DNA of 64,000 bases from Pelobates cultripes (taxonomy: Eukaryota; Chordata; Amphibia; Anura; Pelobatidae): contig OW240913.1 in NCBI GenBank assembly GCA_933207985.1, positions 98,243,265 through 98,307,264 of the forward strand. The letters run 5' to 3'. Shown piece by piece: positions 18,699 through 60,700 of the stretch (positions are counted from its first letter, which is position 1; every line of letters begins with the position of its first letter). Made by a program: the position numbers and the translations under genes. Below the pieces are notes generated by a model, which was not told the DNA's origin, did no database searches, and was given only the letters and a program-made list of their open reading frames with translations.

Positions 18699-19207
18699 AA
18701 GTTGGAAGGTTTTTAAAAATAGGGAGTGTATTGGGATGTCCCTTTTGCCCAAATGAGTACTCTAGGACTAATGCACCAGGTAAGAATATGCATTAGCCAG
18801 CATTTCATAGGTTTCTTCATCGACTAGTAGTCACTCAGCAATCACAATGTTCTCCAGGCATGGGCTGGTACACTGGGATATTTCCCAGTTGACTAATGCT
18901 TCTGTGGTTGACGAGGCTGCCACATTATGTGATATTTACAAATGACTGCAGTAAGTTGGAAGGTTTGTAAAAATAGGGAGTGTATTGGGATGTCCCTTTT
19001 GCCCTATATGAGTACTCTAGGACTAATGCACCAGGTAAGAATATGCATTAGCCAGCATTTCATAGGTTTCTTCATCGACTAGTAGTCACTCAGCAATCAC
19101 AATGTTCTCCAGGCATGGGCTGGTACACTGGGATATTTCCCAGTTGACTAATGCTTCTGTGGTTGACAAGGCTGCCACATTATGAGATATTTACAAATGA
19201 CTGCAGT
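18699..19207 (+). repeat. 254-bp tandem duplication (two nearly identical units)
   Basis: Units 18699-18952 and 18953-19207 both start AAGTTGGAAGGTTT and end AATGACTGCAGT. Differences are few (for example TTTTTAAAAA against TTTGTAAAAA, GACGAGG against GACAAGG, CCAAAT against CTATAT). High identity points to a recent duplication. Neither unit codes. Confidence 0.9.
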
Positions 19208-19984: not shown

Positions 19985-20340
19985 TCGTGTATCTATTATT
20001 AGCATTTATATAATGCCAACATATTCTGCAGCACCCAACAATTATAATTTAAAGAATATTACAATTACAATTAAAGAATATTTAGAGTTGTAGGTTGTCC
20101 TGCTCAATCAGGTTTACAATCTACAATGATTTTAGGTAGACATACCATATTTTTCCGTGTATAAGACTATGTTTGTTTCTAAAAAAACAAATTATCTAAA
20201 ATTGGGTTGAAGAAAAAATAGGGGTCATCTTATACATGGGGCGTCTTATACACAGAAAAATACGGTATATCTTTAGGTGTCTTGCCCATAGACACTTACT
20301 GATAAGGTGGTGTGACAGGGATTTAAACCTCAGTGGCTGG
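19985..20340 (-). mobile_element. L2-like tail repeat split by a small MITE
   Basis: TTAGCATTTATATAATGCC and ATATTCTGCAGCACCCAAC match the reverse L2-like tail at 11605-11945. The same family seems to resume after the MITE (GTGTCTTGCCCATAGACACT). The gypsy coding region abuts on the right. Confidence 0.5.
20142..20268. mobile_element. Small palindromic MITE with 26-bp TIRs
   Basis: The left end ATACCATATTTTTCCGTGTA.. (20142-20167) is, but for two mismatches, the reverse complement of the right end ..TACACAGAAAAATACGGTAT (20243-20268). The 127-bp element has no coding capacity. The superfamily (ISL2EU-like or hAT-like) is unclear. Confidence 0.7.
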
Positions 20341-21415
20341 GGCACAGATGGCTGCTACCTCCTCTATTCTCTGGTGATAGGGTTTGAGCATGTTCACATG
20401 GAGCATGCGTCGTTTCCCTACCCCAGAGCACGGGCCGATCACATAAGTGGTGTCACATCTCTGTTCTACCACTTGGTATGGGCCCTGCCAGGTGGCCTGT
20501 AGCTTGTCTGTGCGGACAGGTTTCAAAATTAGAACTTTCTGTCCCACCTGAAAGCTACGGTCTCTGGCTCCCCTATTGTACCACCGGCGCTGTTGCCGCT
20601 GAGCCGCTCGGAGGTTCTCCTGTACGGTTTGGGTTAGAGCCTCCAAGCGGTCCCGGAACTCCAGCACGTATGGCACAATGGAGACTCCATCTGCACTGCT
20701 CCCCCCCTCCCAATGTTCTCTAATTAAGTCTAGGGGTCCCCTCACCCGTCTCCCAAACAATAACTCAAACGGAGAGAAGCCGGTAGATTCCTGTGGCACT
20801 TCTCGATACGCAAAAAGCAGATGGGGTAAAAACCTCTCCCAGTCTTTATGGGACTCCCCAAATGTCCTGAGCATCTGCTTCAAGGTACCGTTAAAGCGCT
20901 CACACAACCCATTGGACTGCGGGTGATAGGCAGAATTTACAATTGGCTTAATGCCACATAACTTCCATAGCTGGTGGGTCACTTCGGCTGTAAATTGGGT
21001 CCCCCTATCCGAAATTATCTCTTGGGGAAATCCCATCCTGGAAAATATCTTCATCATAGCTTCGGCTACCGTTTCTGCTTGTATATTGGAAAGGGCTATA
21101 GCCTCCGGGTACCGGGTGGCATAATCTACAATGGTCAGAATATACCGCTTGCCGGAAGGGCTAGGCTTGGACAGTGGTCCTACTATATCCACTGCTACTC
21201 TGCTAAAAGGGTTCTTCAATAATGGGAAGGGGGCACAATTTCGCTTTGTGGCGTTCACCCCTTTTTCCCACTCTCTGACAAATGTCACATGTCTGACAAT
21301 ACTGTCTCACATCTCTAGATATACCTGGCCAGAAAAATGCATGTGTCAATCTGTACCTCGTTCTTGTCATCCCTAAATACCCAGACAGCGGAATATCGTG
21401 GGCAATTCTAAGCAA
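20323..21415 (-). pseudogene. Gmr1-like Ty3/gypsy integrase (frameshifted)
   Basis: Integrase inserts retrotransposon cDNA into the genome. The N-terminal zinc domain reads HDIPLSGYLGMTRTRYRL with CQTCDICQRV; the second His of the HHCC set is Tyr here. The catalytic core follows: PFSRVAVDIVGPLSKP (D), EIISDRGTQFTAEVTHQLWK (D) and NSAYHPQSNGLCERFNGTLK (E). The C-terminus has the gypsy GPY/F motif (TWQGPYQVVEQR) and a stop at 20323. Two lesions break the frame: an extra T near 21205 between EEPF and SRVA, and a 10-bp tandem duplication at 21402-21421 at the join with gag-PR. No RT or RNase H follows; the sequence downstream is a repeat, so the 3' half is missing. Confidence 0.85.
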
Positions 21416-23255
21416 TTCTAAGCAGTTCCTGCCGGTATTTCTGGGGCACTATAAGCTGCTTATTAGTCACATGTACAGACCTCCCTACCACCCGCTCAGC
21501 AACACGATATAACAGATTTTTCTCCCATACATACTGTTCTCCCTCTAAACCTGTCTGACCAGCTGTCGCCTTATCCTTATAAATTTGCCATGTGGGATCG
21601 TTTTTAACCTCTGCCTCAAAGTCAGTCGGGGTATCCCAGGAAACACGGGTTACACGGGGTACATTGTCTCTTACCTGAGCCTCAGAGTGTGTGGAAGATG
21701 AAGCCGTGGTGCGAGCCTGCTGACGGGTGGTCACTGGATATGCCTCATGGCGAGGACTTTGGGGCACAAAAGCGGAAGTCATTTGCCCCAGGTCATTCCC
21801 CAAAACAACATCAGCTGGTAACTTGTGCATCAGCCCCACCTCCACCATACCTTCCCCCGCACCCCAATTCAGATGTACCTTGGCAGTTGGTAGCCGGTAC
21901 ATGGCACCCCCTGCTACCCGGACTGCTACCGATCCCCCGGTATGTGCTGATCCTGACACCAAATGCGGGGCAACCAAAGTTAAGGTAGCGCCGGAATCAC
22001 GTAGCCCCTGTACCTCTTTCCCTTCCAGAGTCACGGTCTGGCAATGTGGTTGTCGGTTGTCAGTAGCATGGATGGACATTACATCGTGCAAAACGCCCAG
22101 GGGTTCATCAGCCGACTCAAGCGGCACTCCTGGCAAAGTTGGCTCTGCATGATAATAATGAGCAGCTGCCCGCGGGGCCATATTCTGCCGGAGCTGATTC
22201 CAGTTCTTGCGGCTCCGGTTTTGGGTGCACTCCCGGGCCATGTGCCCCCATTGCTTACAGGCATGGCACTGGATGTTGGACCTGCCATTATAACGGGAGT
22301 GGGGAGGTTGTCCCACAAGTGCTGGTCTGGATGGTGCTGTCGCTGGGGCAGGAGCAATAACTGGAAACGGTTGCGGGTTGGGTTTTGCATACCCTCGGTT
22401 ATTATTTTTATGATGCCTCCTAGCATCATAATGTTGGTCGGCCAATCGTGCCGCTTCGGTTAGGGTGTGAGGATTTCGGTCATTCACCCATTCTTGAGCC
22501 TCTGGTGCCAGGCCATTACAAAACTGCTCCAGTAGCAACATCTGGCGTAACTCTTCCATGGTGGTAGCTCTGCTGGCTTGTATCCAGCATTGTGAGGCTT
22601 GGTCAAGCTTGTGTGCCCACTCCGCATGTGAGTCTTTGTCCCCTTTTTTCAATTCTCTGAACTTGCGCCGGTATGCCTCTGGGGTAATGGCATACCTTTC
22701 TAATAGCGCCTGCTTTACCTTGTCATAATTCTTGCTGTCCTCTCTGGGTACAGCCCGGTAGGCGTCTGCTGCACGCCCAGACAGTTTGCCTGCCAACAAA
22801 GGTACCCACATAGCTTGCTCTACATCATGCAAGTCACACAATCTTTCAAAATCTTGCAAGAATCCATCTATTTCGTCTTTATCCTCGCAAAAAGTTTTAA
22901 ATGCATGATGTGGTATTTTTGGCCTTCCCTGGCCCACAGTTGAAACAGCAGCGGTTTCTGCTTGAGGTGAGAAGGCTTGATTCATTTGCGCCATCACGTA
23001 CTCCTGTGCATCCGCCGAAATTATGGTCATAATTTCTGGAGATACTGGAGCGGGCCAAAATGCCAATCTTGTCCTCATTTCTCGTTCAAATGGGGTCTCC
23101 TCCATGTTTGCTGGGGGTGTAGCACTACGAGCTCGGTCTCCTTCCATTAGCTCGGCAATAAGTCTTGCTTTAGGCTTATTGCTGGCTATCTTACCCCTGG
23201 CTTCCAACAGCTCCTTTAACGTTTGCCGTTTCAATATGGTGTAGTCCGTCCCCAT
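21408..23255 (-). CDS. gag-pro: Gmr1-like Ty3/gypsy Gag-protease polyprotein
   Basis: 615 codons, open from MGTDYTILKRQTLKELLEAR. Residues about 120-260 form a SCAN-like capsid domain (KQALLERYAITPEAYRRKF, MLLLEQFCNGLAPEAQEWV, HTLTEAARLADQH). SCAN domains are thought to derive from this gypsy gag group. A zinc knuckle CHACKQWGHMAREC (CX2CX4HX4C) near residue 340 binds RNA, and a retropepsin with GLRDSGATLTLVAPHLV lies near residue 430; it cleaves the polyprotein. The end, NKQLIVPQKYRQELLRIA, is already the linker that precedes integrase, so protease is followed directly by integrase without RT. That fits the unusual PR-IN-RT order of Gmr1-type elements. The stop at 21408 is produced by the 10-bp duplication. 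Start codon chosen as the first ATG after the LTR and leader. Confidence 0.85.
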   Translation of the reverse strand: MGTDYTILKRQTLKELLEARGKIASNKPKARLIAELMEGDRARSATPPANMEETPFEREMRTRLAFWPAPVSPEIMTIISADAQEYVMAQMNQAFSPQAETAAVSTVGQGRPKIPHHAFKTFCEDKDEIDGFLQDFERLCDLHDVEQAMWVPLLAGKLSGRAADAYRAVPREDSKNYDKVKQALLERYAITPEAYRRKFRELKKGDKDSHAEWAHKLDQASQCWIQASRATTMEELRQMLLLEQFCNGLAPEAQEWVNDRNPHTLTEAARLADQHYDARRHHKNNNRGYAKPNPQPFPVIAPAPATAPSRPALVGQPPHSRYNGRSNIQCHACKQWGHMARECTQNRSRKNWNQLRQNMAPRAAAHYYHAEPTLPGVPLESADEPLGVLHDVMSIHATDNRQPHCQTVTLEGKEVQGLRDSGATLTLVAPHLVSGSAHTGGSVAVRVAGGAMYRLPTAKVHLNWGAGEGMVEVGLMHKLPADVVLGNDLGQMTSAFVPQSPRHEAYPVTTRQQARTTASSSTHSEAQVRDNVPRVTRVSWDTPTDFEAEVKNDPTWQIYKDKATAGQTGLEGEQYVWEKNLLYRVAERVVGRSVHVTNKQLIVPQKYRQELLRIA

Positions 23256-51054: not shown

Positions 51055-52820
<1,766 letters not shown>

Positions 52821-55639: not shown

Positions 55640-56238
55640 CACTATATGGCCAAACAAAAATGATGTCCAAATTCCTATTCCTTATGTTACTTGCCCTTGC
55701 AAATGATATGGAGTCTAACCCTGGTGCCCCAACTAATTCTAGTCCTACTCTCCCCACTAAAAAAGGCCTCTCTTTTGTGCACTGGAACATCCATAGCGTA
55801 CTCCCTAAACTGGATGCACTGCAAGCCTGGTGTTCCCATTAAAACCAAAAATCCTTGTGCTCTCGGAATCATGGTTAACAAATAAAATAAAAGATTCCGC
55901 CATTGCAATACAGGGTTATTCATGTTTTAGAAATGACAGAGCAAAGAGAGGAGGAGGCATTGTTATTTATGTTAATAATTCAATAAAGTTTACCTCCTTA
56001 CAAAACTTTAGCCCTCTTGACACCTTTGATTTCCTTTCTGGCACAATTGAGATCTCGTGTAAATCAATCATTGTTGCAGGAATCTACCACCCAGGGCCGG
56101 TGCAAGGATTTTTGCCGCCCTAGGCAAAAGTAAAGTTTGACGCCCCCCTCCTCCCCCCCGTGACATCGCAATGCCCCACCCATATGACCTGCCATGTTAA
56201 CTAACGCTAGTGCTGCAGTGCCGCTGTGTTTACATTAA

Positions 56239-56315
56239 AAGGCCTGCAGGGACAGGCTATAGACACCAGGACCACTACATTAAGGTGCAGTGGTTCTGGG
56301 GACTATAGTGTTTCT
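56239..56315. mobile_element. Short piggyBac-type MITE
   Basis: TTAA at 56235-56238 and 56316-56319 encloses GACAGGCTATAGACACCAGG and CTGGGGACTATAGTGTTTC, with a CCACTACATTAAGGTGCAGTGG hairpin-like centre. Confidence 0.55.
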
Positions 56316-56579
56316 TTAATGTGAGGTAAATTAGAGATTAGTGCCACGAATAATATACTAGATTACCTACTTACAAGCAGATGAGGATGATGATGGGCTC
56401 TAGCTGCAGTCTGGCTCCACTGGTCTGGTGTATAACAGGATCTCTGGAGGCTGTTTGTAACTGTGGTCACACAAATCAATGTTCTGGGAGAACGAGAAGC
56501 AGCTCCATTTTTTGGGGGCCCTTTACACAGCTCAAGGTCTGGGTCCCAGGGTCCACCTTCATTTTCCACCAATGAGTTT

Positions 56580-56930
56580 GTTCACAGGGGATGGAGTGTG
56601 TAGGGAATGTCCTGATTTGTGTGTAAGGAATGCATTTTGTGAATCTGTGTTTGTATGTGTAAGGGCTGCAAGGTGTGTTTCTGTGTATGTAAGGGATGAA
56701 GTGTGTGAGTCTGTAAGGGGTGCATTGAGTGTGTGTAAGGAATGCATTGTGTGTTTCTGTGTGTGCAAGGGATGCATTGTGTGTAAGGGTTGCATTGCGT
56801 GTGTGTGTGTAATGCATTGTGTGTGTAATGCATTGTGTGTTTTTCTGTGTGCAAGGGGTTCATTGTCTTTGTGTGTAAGGGGTGCATTGTGTGTGATTGT
56901 GATTGTGTGTGTGTGTGATGGATGTCAATC
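56580..56930. repeat. TG-rich minisatellite (TGTGTAAGGGATGCATTG-like)
   Basis: Degenerate units of about 18-30 bp around GTGTGTAAGGGATGCATTGT. Similar in style to 12960-13250. Confidence 0.8.
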
Positions 56931-57478
56931 TCTCCCCCCTCCCTTGTCACTCTCTTCTCCCCCCCTCCCTTGTTACTCTCATTCCCCCTCCCTCCCCTGT
57001 CACTCCCCCCTCCCTGTCAATTTCTCTCTCCCCGTCAATTCCCCTCCCTGTCAATGTCTCCCCCCCTGTTAGTTTCTTTCCCCCCCACCTCCCTGTTAGT
57101 TTATTTCTCCCCCCTCCCCTGTCAGTTTCTTTCTTCCCCCCTCCCCTCCCCTCCCTGTTTCTTTCTTCCCCCTCCCTGTTTCTTTCTTCCCCCTCCTTCC
57201 CTGTTTCCTTCTCCCCCTCCCTCCCTGTTTCCTTCTCCCCCCTCCCTCCCTCTTTTTCCCCCTCCCTCCGTTTCTTTCTTCCCCCTCCCTCCGTTTCCTT
57301 CTCCCCCCTCCCTCCTTCCCTGTTTCCTTCTCCCCCTCCCTCCCTGTTTCCTTCTCCCCCTCCCTCCCTCTTTCTTCCCCCTCCCTCCCTGTTTCTTTCC
57401 CCTCCCTCCCTCCCTGTTTCTTTCTTCCCCCTCCCTCTGTTTCCTTCTCCCCCTCCCTCCCTGTTTCTTTCTCCCCCT
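56931..57478. repeat. Polypyrimidine tract with CCCTCCCTG units
   Basis: Over 500 bp almost only C and T on the plus strand, in CCCTCCCTGTTTCTTTCTTC-like units. It stops at the gap, so it probably caused the assembly break. The open frames here (Pro/Ser/Phe-rich) are artefacts. Confidence 0.9.
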
Positions 57479-57578
57479 NNNNNNNNNNNNNNNNNNNNNN
57501 NNNNNNNNNNNNNNNNNNNNNNNNNNNNNNNNNNNNNNNNNNNNNNNNNNNNNNNNNNNNNNNNNNNNNNNNNNNNNN
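57479..57578. other. Assembly gap (100 N)
   Basis: Exactly 100 Ns, a conventional placeholder for a gap of unknown length. Confidence 1.
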
Positions 57579-57676
57579 CTGACAGGAGAGAGCGCTGAGC
57601 GCTTCCCTCCTGTCAGCCTCTCCTCAGGCTGCGCCCGGGCGGTGCGGTCCGCCCTCATGGACGCACCGCCCGGGCA
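57579..57676. repeat. Two GC-rich hairpins at the hAT right end
   Basis: CTGACAGGAG..CTCCTGTCAG (57579-57616) and GCCCGGGCGGTGCG..CGCACCGCCCGGGC (about 57633-57675). Confidence 0.8.
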
Positions 57677-58154
57677 AAGCTGCAGCCACCTGAGGCTCAA
57701 TACAGAGCGCTCGGGCGGCTGCAGGATAAGCGGGGCCGGCGCTCCTGGCGGTGCCCCCTCCCAAGGGGCGCCCTAGGCGGCTGCCTAGTCCGCCTTACAG
57801 GTAGCGCCGGCCCTGCTACCACCCAACTAGCTCCCCTGTGCATTCTCTATCTGACATAGCCCATCTCCTAAGTGAAACCATAGCTCAAAACCCAAAAAGT
57901 TGGTCTTTGGAGATTTTAATATTGATTGGATGAATCCTAAAAATAATAGTTATTGCTCGCTGTTTAAAACTTTGCAACTAACGCAATTTATCTCCTCCCC
58001 AACTCGCATAAACATTAAAAGCCATAACCATACCCTGCTCGATTGGATTCTCTCCACTTCTCCTGATAGAATCCAGGAGGTTGGTGTTCTCCCTAACAGT
58101 TTCAGTGATCACTGTTTAGTGTACTCCGTGCGCAAAATAAAGGCTACTAAATCC

Positions 58155-58597
58155 AGAGCAAAAAAACGGGTTGCACGAGTATTCTAAGAACGGACAGCAG
58201 CTAAAATAGCCTGCCCTTCAGTGGGTCCCCACTCAGAACTCAAGCTGGTTTTAGCTCATCTTGTGCCATTACAGAGAGAACGTATCTGAAGCATATCAGA
58301 CTGGTCCCACCCATACGGGCAGTCCAGATCCGAAATGCCAGCAAGTTCTCTCTGCACGAGAGATACAGCAACCTCAGACGATCGTTTCAGCCTTGTTAGG
58401 CATCATCAGTGAGGCATAGCTGATATCTCTCTAGGCACCGTGAGCAAGGGGTCCACGTCTGGATTACCCTTTAAACTAATGGAGAGCAAAAAACGGGTCG
58501 CAAGAGTATTCTGAGAACTGACAGCAGCTAAAATAGCCTGCCCTTCGGTGGGTCCCCGCTCAGAACTCAAGCTGGTTTTAGCTCATCTTGTGCCATT
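58155..58597 (-). mobile_element. Retrozyme-like insertion: 1.35 copies of a 328-bp hammerhead-bearing unit
   Basis: The L2 codons T-K-S are followed by 443 bp of foreign DNA, after which S-P-K-V-K-I-T-R resumes; TCC flanks both sides (58152-58154, 58598-58600). The insert begins and ends with the same about 115-bp block (58155-58270 and 58483-58597; AGAGCAAAAAACGGGT.. to ..CTTGTGCCATT), so it is a head-to-tail unit of 328 bp plus a third of the next. The unit carries a type I hammerhead on the minus strand. Size and design match hammerhead-bearing non-coding retroelements of animals, such as the 330-bp newt Sat2 unit and retrozymes. No coding sequence. Confidence 0.75.
58358..58432 (-). ncRNA. 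Type I hammerhead ribozyme
   Basis: On the minus strand: stem I 5' strand GAGAGATAT-CAGC-TATG-CCTCA, core CTGATGA (58403-58409), stem II GCCT/AGGC with loop AACA, core GAAA (58385-58388), a 2-bp-class stem III C-GATC-G, cleavage triplet GTC (58377-58379), stem I 3' strand TGAGG-TT-GCTG-TATCTCTC. All invariant core positions are present. Stem I pairs over 17 bp with an internal loop (TATG/TT) that could make the loop contact known to speed natural hammerheads. The only flaw is a U-U mismatch at the base of stem II (positions 10.1/11.1), usually G-C. Predicted cleavage is between 58377 and 58376. The second, partial unit lacks the ribozyme. Confidence 0.85.
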
Positions 58598-60700
58598 TCC
58601 TCTCCCAAGGTTAAAATCACCAGGTCCTTCAAAAAATTTAAACTTGAATACTTTCTTAATGACATCAAGAAACTCCCATGGTATAGATTAAATATTATCA
58701 CAGATCTGGACTGTGCAGTTGAATTCTTTCAGTCTAAACTCCTACAAGTTTGTAATTTGCATGCCCCGCTGCGTAAGGTGAGAGTAAAAGGAGCACATAC
58801 GAACTGGATCACAGCTGACCCCATCCAAATGTACCAGTTTCGGGATTCATTGTGGTCAAAGTTCAAGCCTACTGGCTCTATGAACGATCACTGTGCATAT
58901 AGACAATGGCGAAATATATGCACATAACAAACAAAATTGGCCAAGGGCCAATATTTCTGTGAAAATCTGAAGAATAACCTATCAAACCCTTGAAACTTTT
59001 GGAAAGTCATAAATAAATTACAAACTCCCCCAATCTACTCCCAACCCTCCAATGTCAAAGTGGATAACCAAACCCTGCAACTTCCCTTAGATGTAGCAAA
59101 TGCCTTTAACAAGATTTTGCAAAATTGGAAGTGCTTCAACCTGGGTTTTTTTGCCTTCTTTTGAATCAACAGCAAAAAAAGAAATGTGAGGAAGGCTGAA
59201 CTTGATGGACACAAGTCTCTTTTCAGCTATGTAACTATTATTTTGTCGGATGCTCCACTACCCGAATTGCCAAGCTAATAAATGACACACATCCTGAAAC
59301 TACAAATGTGGATCAGGCCCCACTAAATTTGCAAAGACTTAATACAGACAAGTTAATTTTTAGACCTGTACCTATTAGTGTCGTTAAAAAGCACCTTAAT
59401 AATCTAAAAATGAAAAACCAGTCTGAACCTGATCAAATCCCAGCAATGCTGTTGAAGCTCAGTGCGCCGGCAATTGCTAAACCTGTCGCAGCCATAATTA
59501 ACGAATGTCTGGATACATACCCAAACTTTGGAAGACTGCAAGAGTAATGCCTATCTATAAAAGTGGCGACACTATTTTGGTTTCTAACTATCGCCCAGCA
59601 TCATTGCTCCCAGTATTGTCAAAAATCTTAGAAAAATGTGTCCATACGCAACTATGTGAGCATTACCAACAATCAAACTATGATCAATCGGGTTTTTGCC
59701 CGAATCACTCCACTACAACTGCCCTCTTAAAGGTTTGCAATGACATCTAAACTGGCATGGAACAAGGAGACCTAACTGGAGCTATTTTCCTTGATTTTGC
59801 AAAGGCCTTTGACACAGTAGACCACGACATTCTACTGCACAAACTCAAAAACTAAGGTATTGGTGATTGTCCGCTAACCTGGTTTCGATCGTATGTATCA
59901 GATCGCTCTCAATCTGTGTCCATTTCTGACAGCAACTCCCTCTTCCAGTCACGTGTGGTGCTCCCCAAGGTCCCCTACTATTTACATTATTTATAAATGA
60001 TCTGCCTAATGTCTGCAAATCCTCAAATGTACACATGTACCCAGAGGAAACAGTGATCTATGCGAGCAAATCCGATCTACCGAAGCTTGAGGCTGTGCTC
60101 CAAGACCAGTTCACAGAGCAAACTCTTCCTAAACACTGACAAAACTGTCACAATAATCTTTGGAACAGTACCTAAATTTCACAAATTACACAATCCCCAC
60201 CTATCCAAAACTAGGTGACCTGTACAGAAACAAAATCTGCCTTAGCCCTACAGTGAAAGAAAAAAAAAAATTGTACAGCAAATGCTGATCATTGATTATG
60301 GGGATGTAGTAGATGCACCTGCACCGCAATCCCACATTAATAAACTCAATACATTGTATAACTCGTTCTGCCGATTTGCGCTACAAAGCACTAAAGCACT
60401 AAACTGGCTGTTGCTGGAATCCAGACGCATCCTTCATCTTTCCAGCCTTATGTTTAAGAGCTTTTCTGAGAAGCTCCCACCCTACCTGAGCAGAATGCTC
60501 TCCTCTGCTGTTCCCACCTCATATTACCACTGATCCAGTACCAGCACTTTATTTAGTCTACCTTAATACAAAAAGAAAGCAGCCCGATCCTCCTTTTCCT
60601 ACAGAGCGCCACAATTATGGAACAACCTCCCGAACATTTTAAAATCTTCCCCAAACCTAAAGTCCTTTAAGAGGTCCCTCTCTACATACCTCAAAACAGA
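58598..60700 (+). pseudogene. L2 ORF2 linker, reverse transcriptase and C-terminus
   Basis: After the insertion: ITRSFKKFKLEYFLNDIKKL, HAPLRKVRVKGAHTNWITAD, then the RT with NNLKMKNQSEPDQIPAMLLK, ARVMPIYKSGDTILVSNYRP, SLLPVLSKILEKCVHTQLCE, IFLDFAKAFDTVDHDILLHK (catalytic Asp region), PQGPLLF-like sequence, then MYPEETVIYASKSD where the usual F/YADDT box is damaged to PEET. The C-terminal part reads SFCRFALQSTKAL, FKSFSEKLPPYLSRMLSSAV and YRAPQLWNNLPNILKSSPNL-like sequence. Many frameshifts. A CR1 tail interrupts it at 59120-59239. Confidence 0.8.
59120..59239 (+). mobile_element. Severely 5'-truncated CR1 tail in the L2 element
   Basis: ATTTTG at 59114-59119 and 59240-59245 brackets 120 bp that reads AAAATTGGAAGTGCTTCAAC to CAGCTATGTAACTATT, the reverse complement of the family at 54366-54880. 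The L2 frame (NKI-L / F-V-G-C-S) is restored when it is removed. Confidence 0.75.

Follow-up and report, generated by a model that had tools for sequence, protein, structure and literature searches.

In metazoan genomes, non-LTR retrozymes are described as tandem arrays, from dimers upward, of 150–450-bp units that carry type I hammerhead ribozymes, with a GC content given as below 50% in the text and below 45% in the Figure 1 legend of the same report (PMC7229834). Their target-site duplications, when present, are longer than 4 bp, which is worded there as an observation and not as a condition of membership (PMC7229834). Further characters of this group are the lack of protein-coding capacity, of an LTR, of a primer-binding site, and of a polypurine tract, together with numerous dispersed copies and circular transcripts. 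In the axolotl, retrozyme units of 331 and 353 nt were found as circular RNAs (PMC7229834, Cervera and de la Pena 2020), and for the ribozyme HHR_Amex2 a stem III of two pairs with a tetraloop is described, along with a U-U mismatch at the base of stem II (PMC7229834). Amphibian hammerheads are reported to cleave poorly alone and well as dimers (PMC7761336, PMC7229834). The route by which animal retrozymes return to the genome, with regard to both template and enzyme, is presented as a model, in which tandem cDNA is made from circular RNA (PMC7229834). For plants, a circular template is expected to give cDNAs of varied length (PMC4918200). Frog hammerheads are listed in the literature for Xenopus tropicalis, where they are associated with repeats and resemble the two most conserved vertebrate hammerheads, those of C10 and the RECK intron (PMC3088659), and under other amphibians (PMC7229834).

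The locus described here was found in a window of 64,000 nt, the whole stretch of DNA that was analyzed. We consider it very likely that a 443-base insertion, which carries one type I hammerhead motif and interrupts the frame of a broken LINE, is a copy of an amphibian-type retrozyme, probably made when a self-cut, 327-nt RNA circle was reverse transcribed. The insertion occupies positions 58155 to 58597, with its sense on the minus strand, and corresponds to 1.35 copies of a 327-nt unit. It was delimited by a direct repeat at a spacing of 327, by its exact ends, by the reading frame of the empty site, and by LINE relatives. The direct repeat covers 110 nt at 95% identity on either side of the ribozyme, which is itself present only once, between the two repeat pieces. 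With the ends included, the first piece in the element's sense comprises 115 nt (58483..58597, minus strand) and the second 116 nt (58155..58270, minus strand). Their alignment showed 109 identical columns out of 116, with six substitutions and one 1-nt indel. At three of the six substitutions a CG in one copy is matched by TG or CA in the other, as expected for decay after insertion. Because of these six substitutions, the indel, and the three CG differences, the element is likely not young. The target-site duplication is the triplet TCC (GGA in the element's sense), with its left copy at 58152..58154 and its right copy at 58598..58600. The longest stop-free stretch inside the 443-nt block has 64 codons, and a search with that frame yielded no homologue among predicted proteins. 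No further copy of the element was detected in the window, where only matches of at most 45 nt at 71–100% identity were obtained besides the element itself. An exact pattern search for a second copy in the viral_contigs and genome_contigs collections, neither of which is expected to hold frog DNA, was likewise negative.

The interrupted LINE is present in pieces on the plus strand. The end of the endonuclease domain reaches up to the insertion (57876..58154; PF14529, E = 6.1e-5, with 23.3 bits where the curated cut-off is 27.4), and the linker between endonuclease and reverse transcriptase continues from the insertion on (58598..58924), as assigned from the empty-site frame and from relatives. 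The reverse transcriptase follows as two open pieces separated by a stop (59502..59852; PF00078, E = 5.9e-6 and 6.8e-4, neither reaching the curated cut-off). Three of the eight LINE pieces scanned matched an endonuclease (PF14529, PF03372) or reverse transcriptase (PF00078) family, all with scores below the Pfam curated cut-offs because the pieces are broken; the relatives also support the domain assignments and themselves carry endonuclease and reverse transcriptase domains. The closest LINE protein came from Pelobates cultripes (77% identity over 48% of the query), and proteins from Leptobrachium leishanense showed 60–73% over 27–54% of the query. On these grounds the DNA likely belongs to a frog, perhaps to a spadefoot or one of its kin. 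When positions 58155–58597 and one of the two TCC triplets were removed, the frame was open through the junction. Among the 57 LINE relatives found, 16 matched the empty-site protein and 13 aligned across the insertion point. These junction-spanning relatives are distant, with the nearest about 41% identical, and the frog proteins (Pelobates cultripes, Leptobrachium, and others) stop short of the junction. Over the 34 residues around the junction, the alignment was gap-free in seven of the 13, including the two nearest (P0008 and P0011), and contained one to four gap positions in the remaining six; the full alignments had up to 32 gap positions, this number being reached in the weakest relative. 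Two other observations were made on the same LINE. It carries a second insertion at 56092–57815, bounded by CAGGGCCGGTGC...GCGCCGGCCCTG and flanked on either side by the 8-bp duplication CTACCACC, which resembles a hAT-type DNA element; this insertion holds TG-rich and C-rich minisatellites and the only N run of the window (57479–57578). Near the LINE start, positions 55705–55728 encode DMESNPGA, which bears a resemblance to a 2A ribosome-skipping motif with an altered last residue.

The presence of a type I hammerhead motif on the minus strand (58358..58431) was confirmed from the core letters and the stems, together with a weak Rfam match below the gathering score. All invariant core elements of this type, CUGAUGA, GAA(A), and U-H17, are present between three stems, with stem I open. 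Read on the minus strand from 58431 to 58358, the order is the 5' strand of stem I, CTGATGA, stem II, GAA, ACGATCGT (stem III), C, and the 3' strand of stem I. The motif had first been noticed in an initial annotation of the same DNA as a complete minus-strand type I hammerhead with a tiny stem III, a U-U at 10.1/11.1, and a predicted cleavage site between 58377 and 58376, and each of these points was borne out. Stem III consists of 2 bp with a tetraloop. Stem II is formed by GCCT/AGGC with the loop AACA and a T-T (U-U in the RNA) at its base. Computation assigned H17 to the C at 58377, so that the predicted cleavage site on the minus strand lies between C17 (58377) and the base after it, U1.1 (58376). 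Stem I had been annotated as interrupted, with 17 bp. An internal loop and a bulge were indeed found, but the fold computation gave 8 + 4 + 6 = 18 pairs.

A descriptor scan of both strands returned this site as the only one in the whole window. In dinucleotide-shuffled windows the same descriptor gave four matches in three of 400 shuffles, or about 0.01 expected per window, a rate that is to be read with the fact that the descriptor was composed after the site was known. The covariance models were less favorable. The initial annotation had named a missing covariance-model hit above threshold as one part of what would speak against a ribozyme, and formally this part was observed, since no Rfam family reached its gathering score anywhere in the window. 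With relaxed filters, the region 58000–58800 (801 bases, searched with 4227 families) gave six matches. The sole hammerhead among them was Hammerhead_HH9 (RF02275), with an E value of 0.034 and 20.1 bits compared with a gathering score of 52; this figure is the best of its clan, as the search reports only the best family per clan. The match extends over the full model (1–77), so that the site is alike in form to RF02275 without being a member at this score. HH9 is one of the two most conserved vertebrate hammerheads.

Folding computations, in which tertiary contacts are not represented, were performed for the motif, for a pair of motifs, and for the complete unit. As an isolated 75-mer, the motif had as its minimum free energy structure a rod with a partly paired core (−34.9 kcal/mol), compared with −27.7 kcal/mol for the native hammerhead. 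The low energy z-score of the motif segment (−5.6) belongs to the rod and not to the hammerhead fold. Stem III is made of the self-complementary ACGAUCGU, which would allow eight pairs to form between two copies. The modeled double hammerhead had −70.2 kcal/mol compared with −55.4 kcal/mol for two separate native folds, and the unconstrained motif pair had −74.0 kcal/mol compared with −69.8 kcal/mol for two monomers in their best, non-hammerhead fold. These predicted preferences, for a rod when alone and for pairing as a double motif, agree with the published poor cleavage of single and good cleavage of dimeric amphibian motifs, and a lone ribozyme of this design would be expected to cut poorly. 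Folded as a circle, the 327-nt unit reached −127.1 kcal/mol, compared with −94.4 kcal/mol (S.D. 5.6) in 100 shuffles (z = −5.8, no shuffle as low). Three control stretches of 327 nt gave z values of −0.1, −0.7, and 1.6 (40 shuffles each), and the opposite strand of the unit had −105.7 kcal/mol. The best circular fold of the unit also hides part of the hammerhead core. Directly 3' of the ribozyme, a long hairpin is predicted on the minus strand (58272..58354), closed by CAGAGAGAAC (58354–58345) and GTTCTCTCTG (58281–58272).

The element was compared with the retrozymes described above. Its unit of 327 nt lies within the range of 150–450 bp given for units with type I hammerheads. Both peculiarities of HHR_Amex2 were found, namely the stem II base with its U-U and a stem III of two pairs capped by a tetraloop. 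As in the published retrozymes, no long open frame is present. Because HHR_Amex2 is described with the same U-U, this pair need not be random damage in the present copy. Two traits agree less well with the description: the GC content of the unit is 49.2%, which is below the 50% of the text but above the 45% of the legend, and the target-site duplication of 3 nt is not longer than 4 bp. With 1.35 units and one ribozyme, the locus is shorter than a dimer, the smallest of the published arrays. Among the published elements, HHR_Amex2 and its retrozyme Rtz_353 share with the element the ribozyme type, the stem II base, and the form of stem III, and Rtz_353 likewise has tandem units, which are of comparable length, contain no long open frame, and have a GC content below 50% (PMC7229834). 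The differences are the unit length (327 nt compared with 353 nt), the host (likely a frog compared with a salamander), and the presence here of only 1.35 units with one ribozyme and a 3-nt target duplication (PMC7229834). Kinship with the axolotl unit is suggested by the described form of the latter and not by aligned letters (PMC7229834). On the same basis, the element is likely a new member of an already known kind, the amphibian retrozymes, and belongs by form to the HHR_Amex2 class.

Rtz_331 (HHR_Amex1) and newt satellite 2 share with the element a unit of about 330 bp and a weak stem III with a palindromic tetraloop; better cleavage as a dimer is published for both and is predicted by the folding models for the present motif (PMC7229834, PMC6155905). 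Unlike this site, HHR_Amex1 has one stem III pair in the description that we used, which does not mention a U-U (PMC7229834). The Xenopus tropicalis hammerheads also lie in interspersed repeats of a frog and are likened here by description, not letter by letter; the weak HH9 match fits their reported resemblance to the conserved vertebrate ones (PMC3088659). Plant LTR retrozymes, like the present element, combine hammerheads with a lack of coding capacity and with a proposed circular RNA template, but they differ by a type III hammerhead inside each LTR, by about 700 bp between the hammerheads, and by 4-bp duplications (PMC4918200, PMC7229834).

Other explanations of the locus were considered. 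The near-identical 115- and 116-nt pieces that flank the ribozyme-bearing stretch could also result from an insertion of about 212 bp with LINE sequence duplicated over an unusually long stretch (about 115 bp) on both sides. Yet the endonuclease frame hits a stop after 58184 when it is read into the left piece, and a counterpart of the piece's approximately 39 residues was seen in none of the 13 spanning LINE relatives, distant as these are. Because no spanning relative has an insert of this size at the insertion point and the empty-site frame is open, both repeat pieces were assigned to the insert rather than to a long target-site duplication, which we regard as highly improbable. A chance look-alike of a hammerhead, lying within an unrelated tandem repeat, would be in line with the lack of an Rfam family at gathering score and with a native fold that is not the most stable one. 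Coincidence is nevertheless extremely unlikely given the roughly 0.01 bare-descriptor sites expected per window and the position of the site within a 327-nt tandem unit, where it displays the named peculiarities of axolotl HHR_Amex2 (PMC7229834).

It is also very unlikely that the insertion is part of the pseudo-LTR of a Penelope-like element, in which hammerheads are also of type I and also tandem. Type I hammerheads have been described in these pseudo-LTRs, as has the co-occurrence of Penelope-like elements with retrozymes (PMC7761336, PMC7229834), but the hammerheads concerned are minimal, without helix III or loop-loop contacts (PMC7761336). In the present site, stem III consists of two pairs and a tetraloop, stem I is looped, and the unit size is that of amphibian retrozymes. 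No Penelope-like protein is present at the insertion, where the flanks are the endonuclease and the reverse transcriptase of one LINE; the Pfam scan for such proteins covered nine of the 40 open reading frames of at least 100 aa in the window. A tRNA-derived SINE was ruled out, since ARAGORN found no tRNA gene in the window and the element ends carry neither a poly(A) nor a microsatellite tail. For delta-like agents of toads, a hammerhead on both strands has been reported (PMC7761336); the descriptor found no second hammerhead on the plus strand.

Under the preferred explanation, an amphibian-type retrozyme copy, a source locus of at least two tandem units would be transcribed, and hammerheads acting mostly as pairs joined through stem III ACGAUCGU would cleave the transcript into units of 327 nt. 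These would be circularized by a host RNA ligase. An autonomous retroelement would supply the reverse transcriptase that runs 1.35 times round such a circle, and the cDNA would be joined into the LINE. The insertion is continuous through the predicted cleavage site. Since it is uncut there and longer than one unit, a cleaved, linear monomer did not serve as its template. A fractional length that passes through an uncut site is consistent with reverse transcription of a circular or of an uncut multimeric RNA, and the latter would leave the same product as a circle. Recombination at a later time may also have removed whole units and would leave the same ends, so that 1.35 denotes the present length. 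We propose only tentatively, and with slightly less than even confidence, that the insertion is the frozen record of a single reverse transcription event in a frog, 1.35 turns round a ribozyme-made RNA circle, joined with only a 3-nt duplication. The initial annotation had stated that such ribozymes process multimeric RNA into monomers and circles. This is reported for the family, but the present copy has one ribozyme, one cleavage site, and 1.35 units, and the interpretation is thus partly supported. The surrounding element, the LINE that it interrupts, and the point of insertion had escaped that annotation. With one site in 1.35 units, its own transcript would be cut once at most and would release no unit-length RNA, and the present copy is likely dead.

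If the tentative reading is correct, one insertion whose empty site is known would reveal the circular template of animal retrozymes directly. The exact empty site in a protein-coding LINE defines where the insertion starts and stops, the length of the duplication, and how many turns it comprises. With many copies of this kind from one frog genome, the circle-template model would become testable; scattered start points, fractional lengths, and an intact cleavage junction across copies would favor circular templates. The locus also likely adds frogs to the hosts of HHR_Amex2-like ribozymes, in a position between the satellites of salamanders and the conserved amniote hammerheads.

Several other features of the window were recorded. 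Two adjacent minus-strand open reading frames lie at 20323–23255. The longer one (615 aa) contains a SCAN domain and a zinc knuckle that falls slightly short of the Pfam cut-off, and the other (321 aa) contains an integrase core. They likely represent either a retrotransposon whose gag-like protein bears a SCAN domain or a host protein that descends from such a retrotransposon. A 255-bp unit is present in two tandem copies with 98% matches at 18699–19207. At 51771–52780, a 91-bp unit is repeated in about 11 tandem copies with 94% matches, and this array is adjoined by a C2H2 zinc-finger open reading frame on the minus strand (51326–51775).
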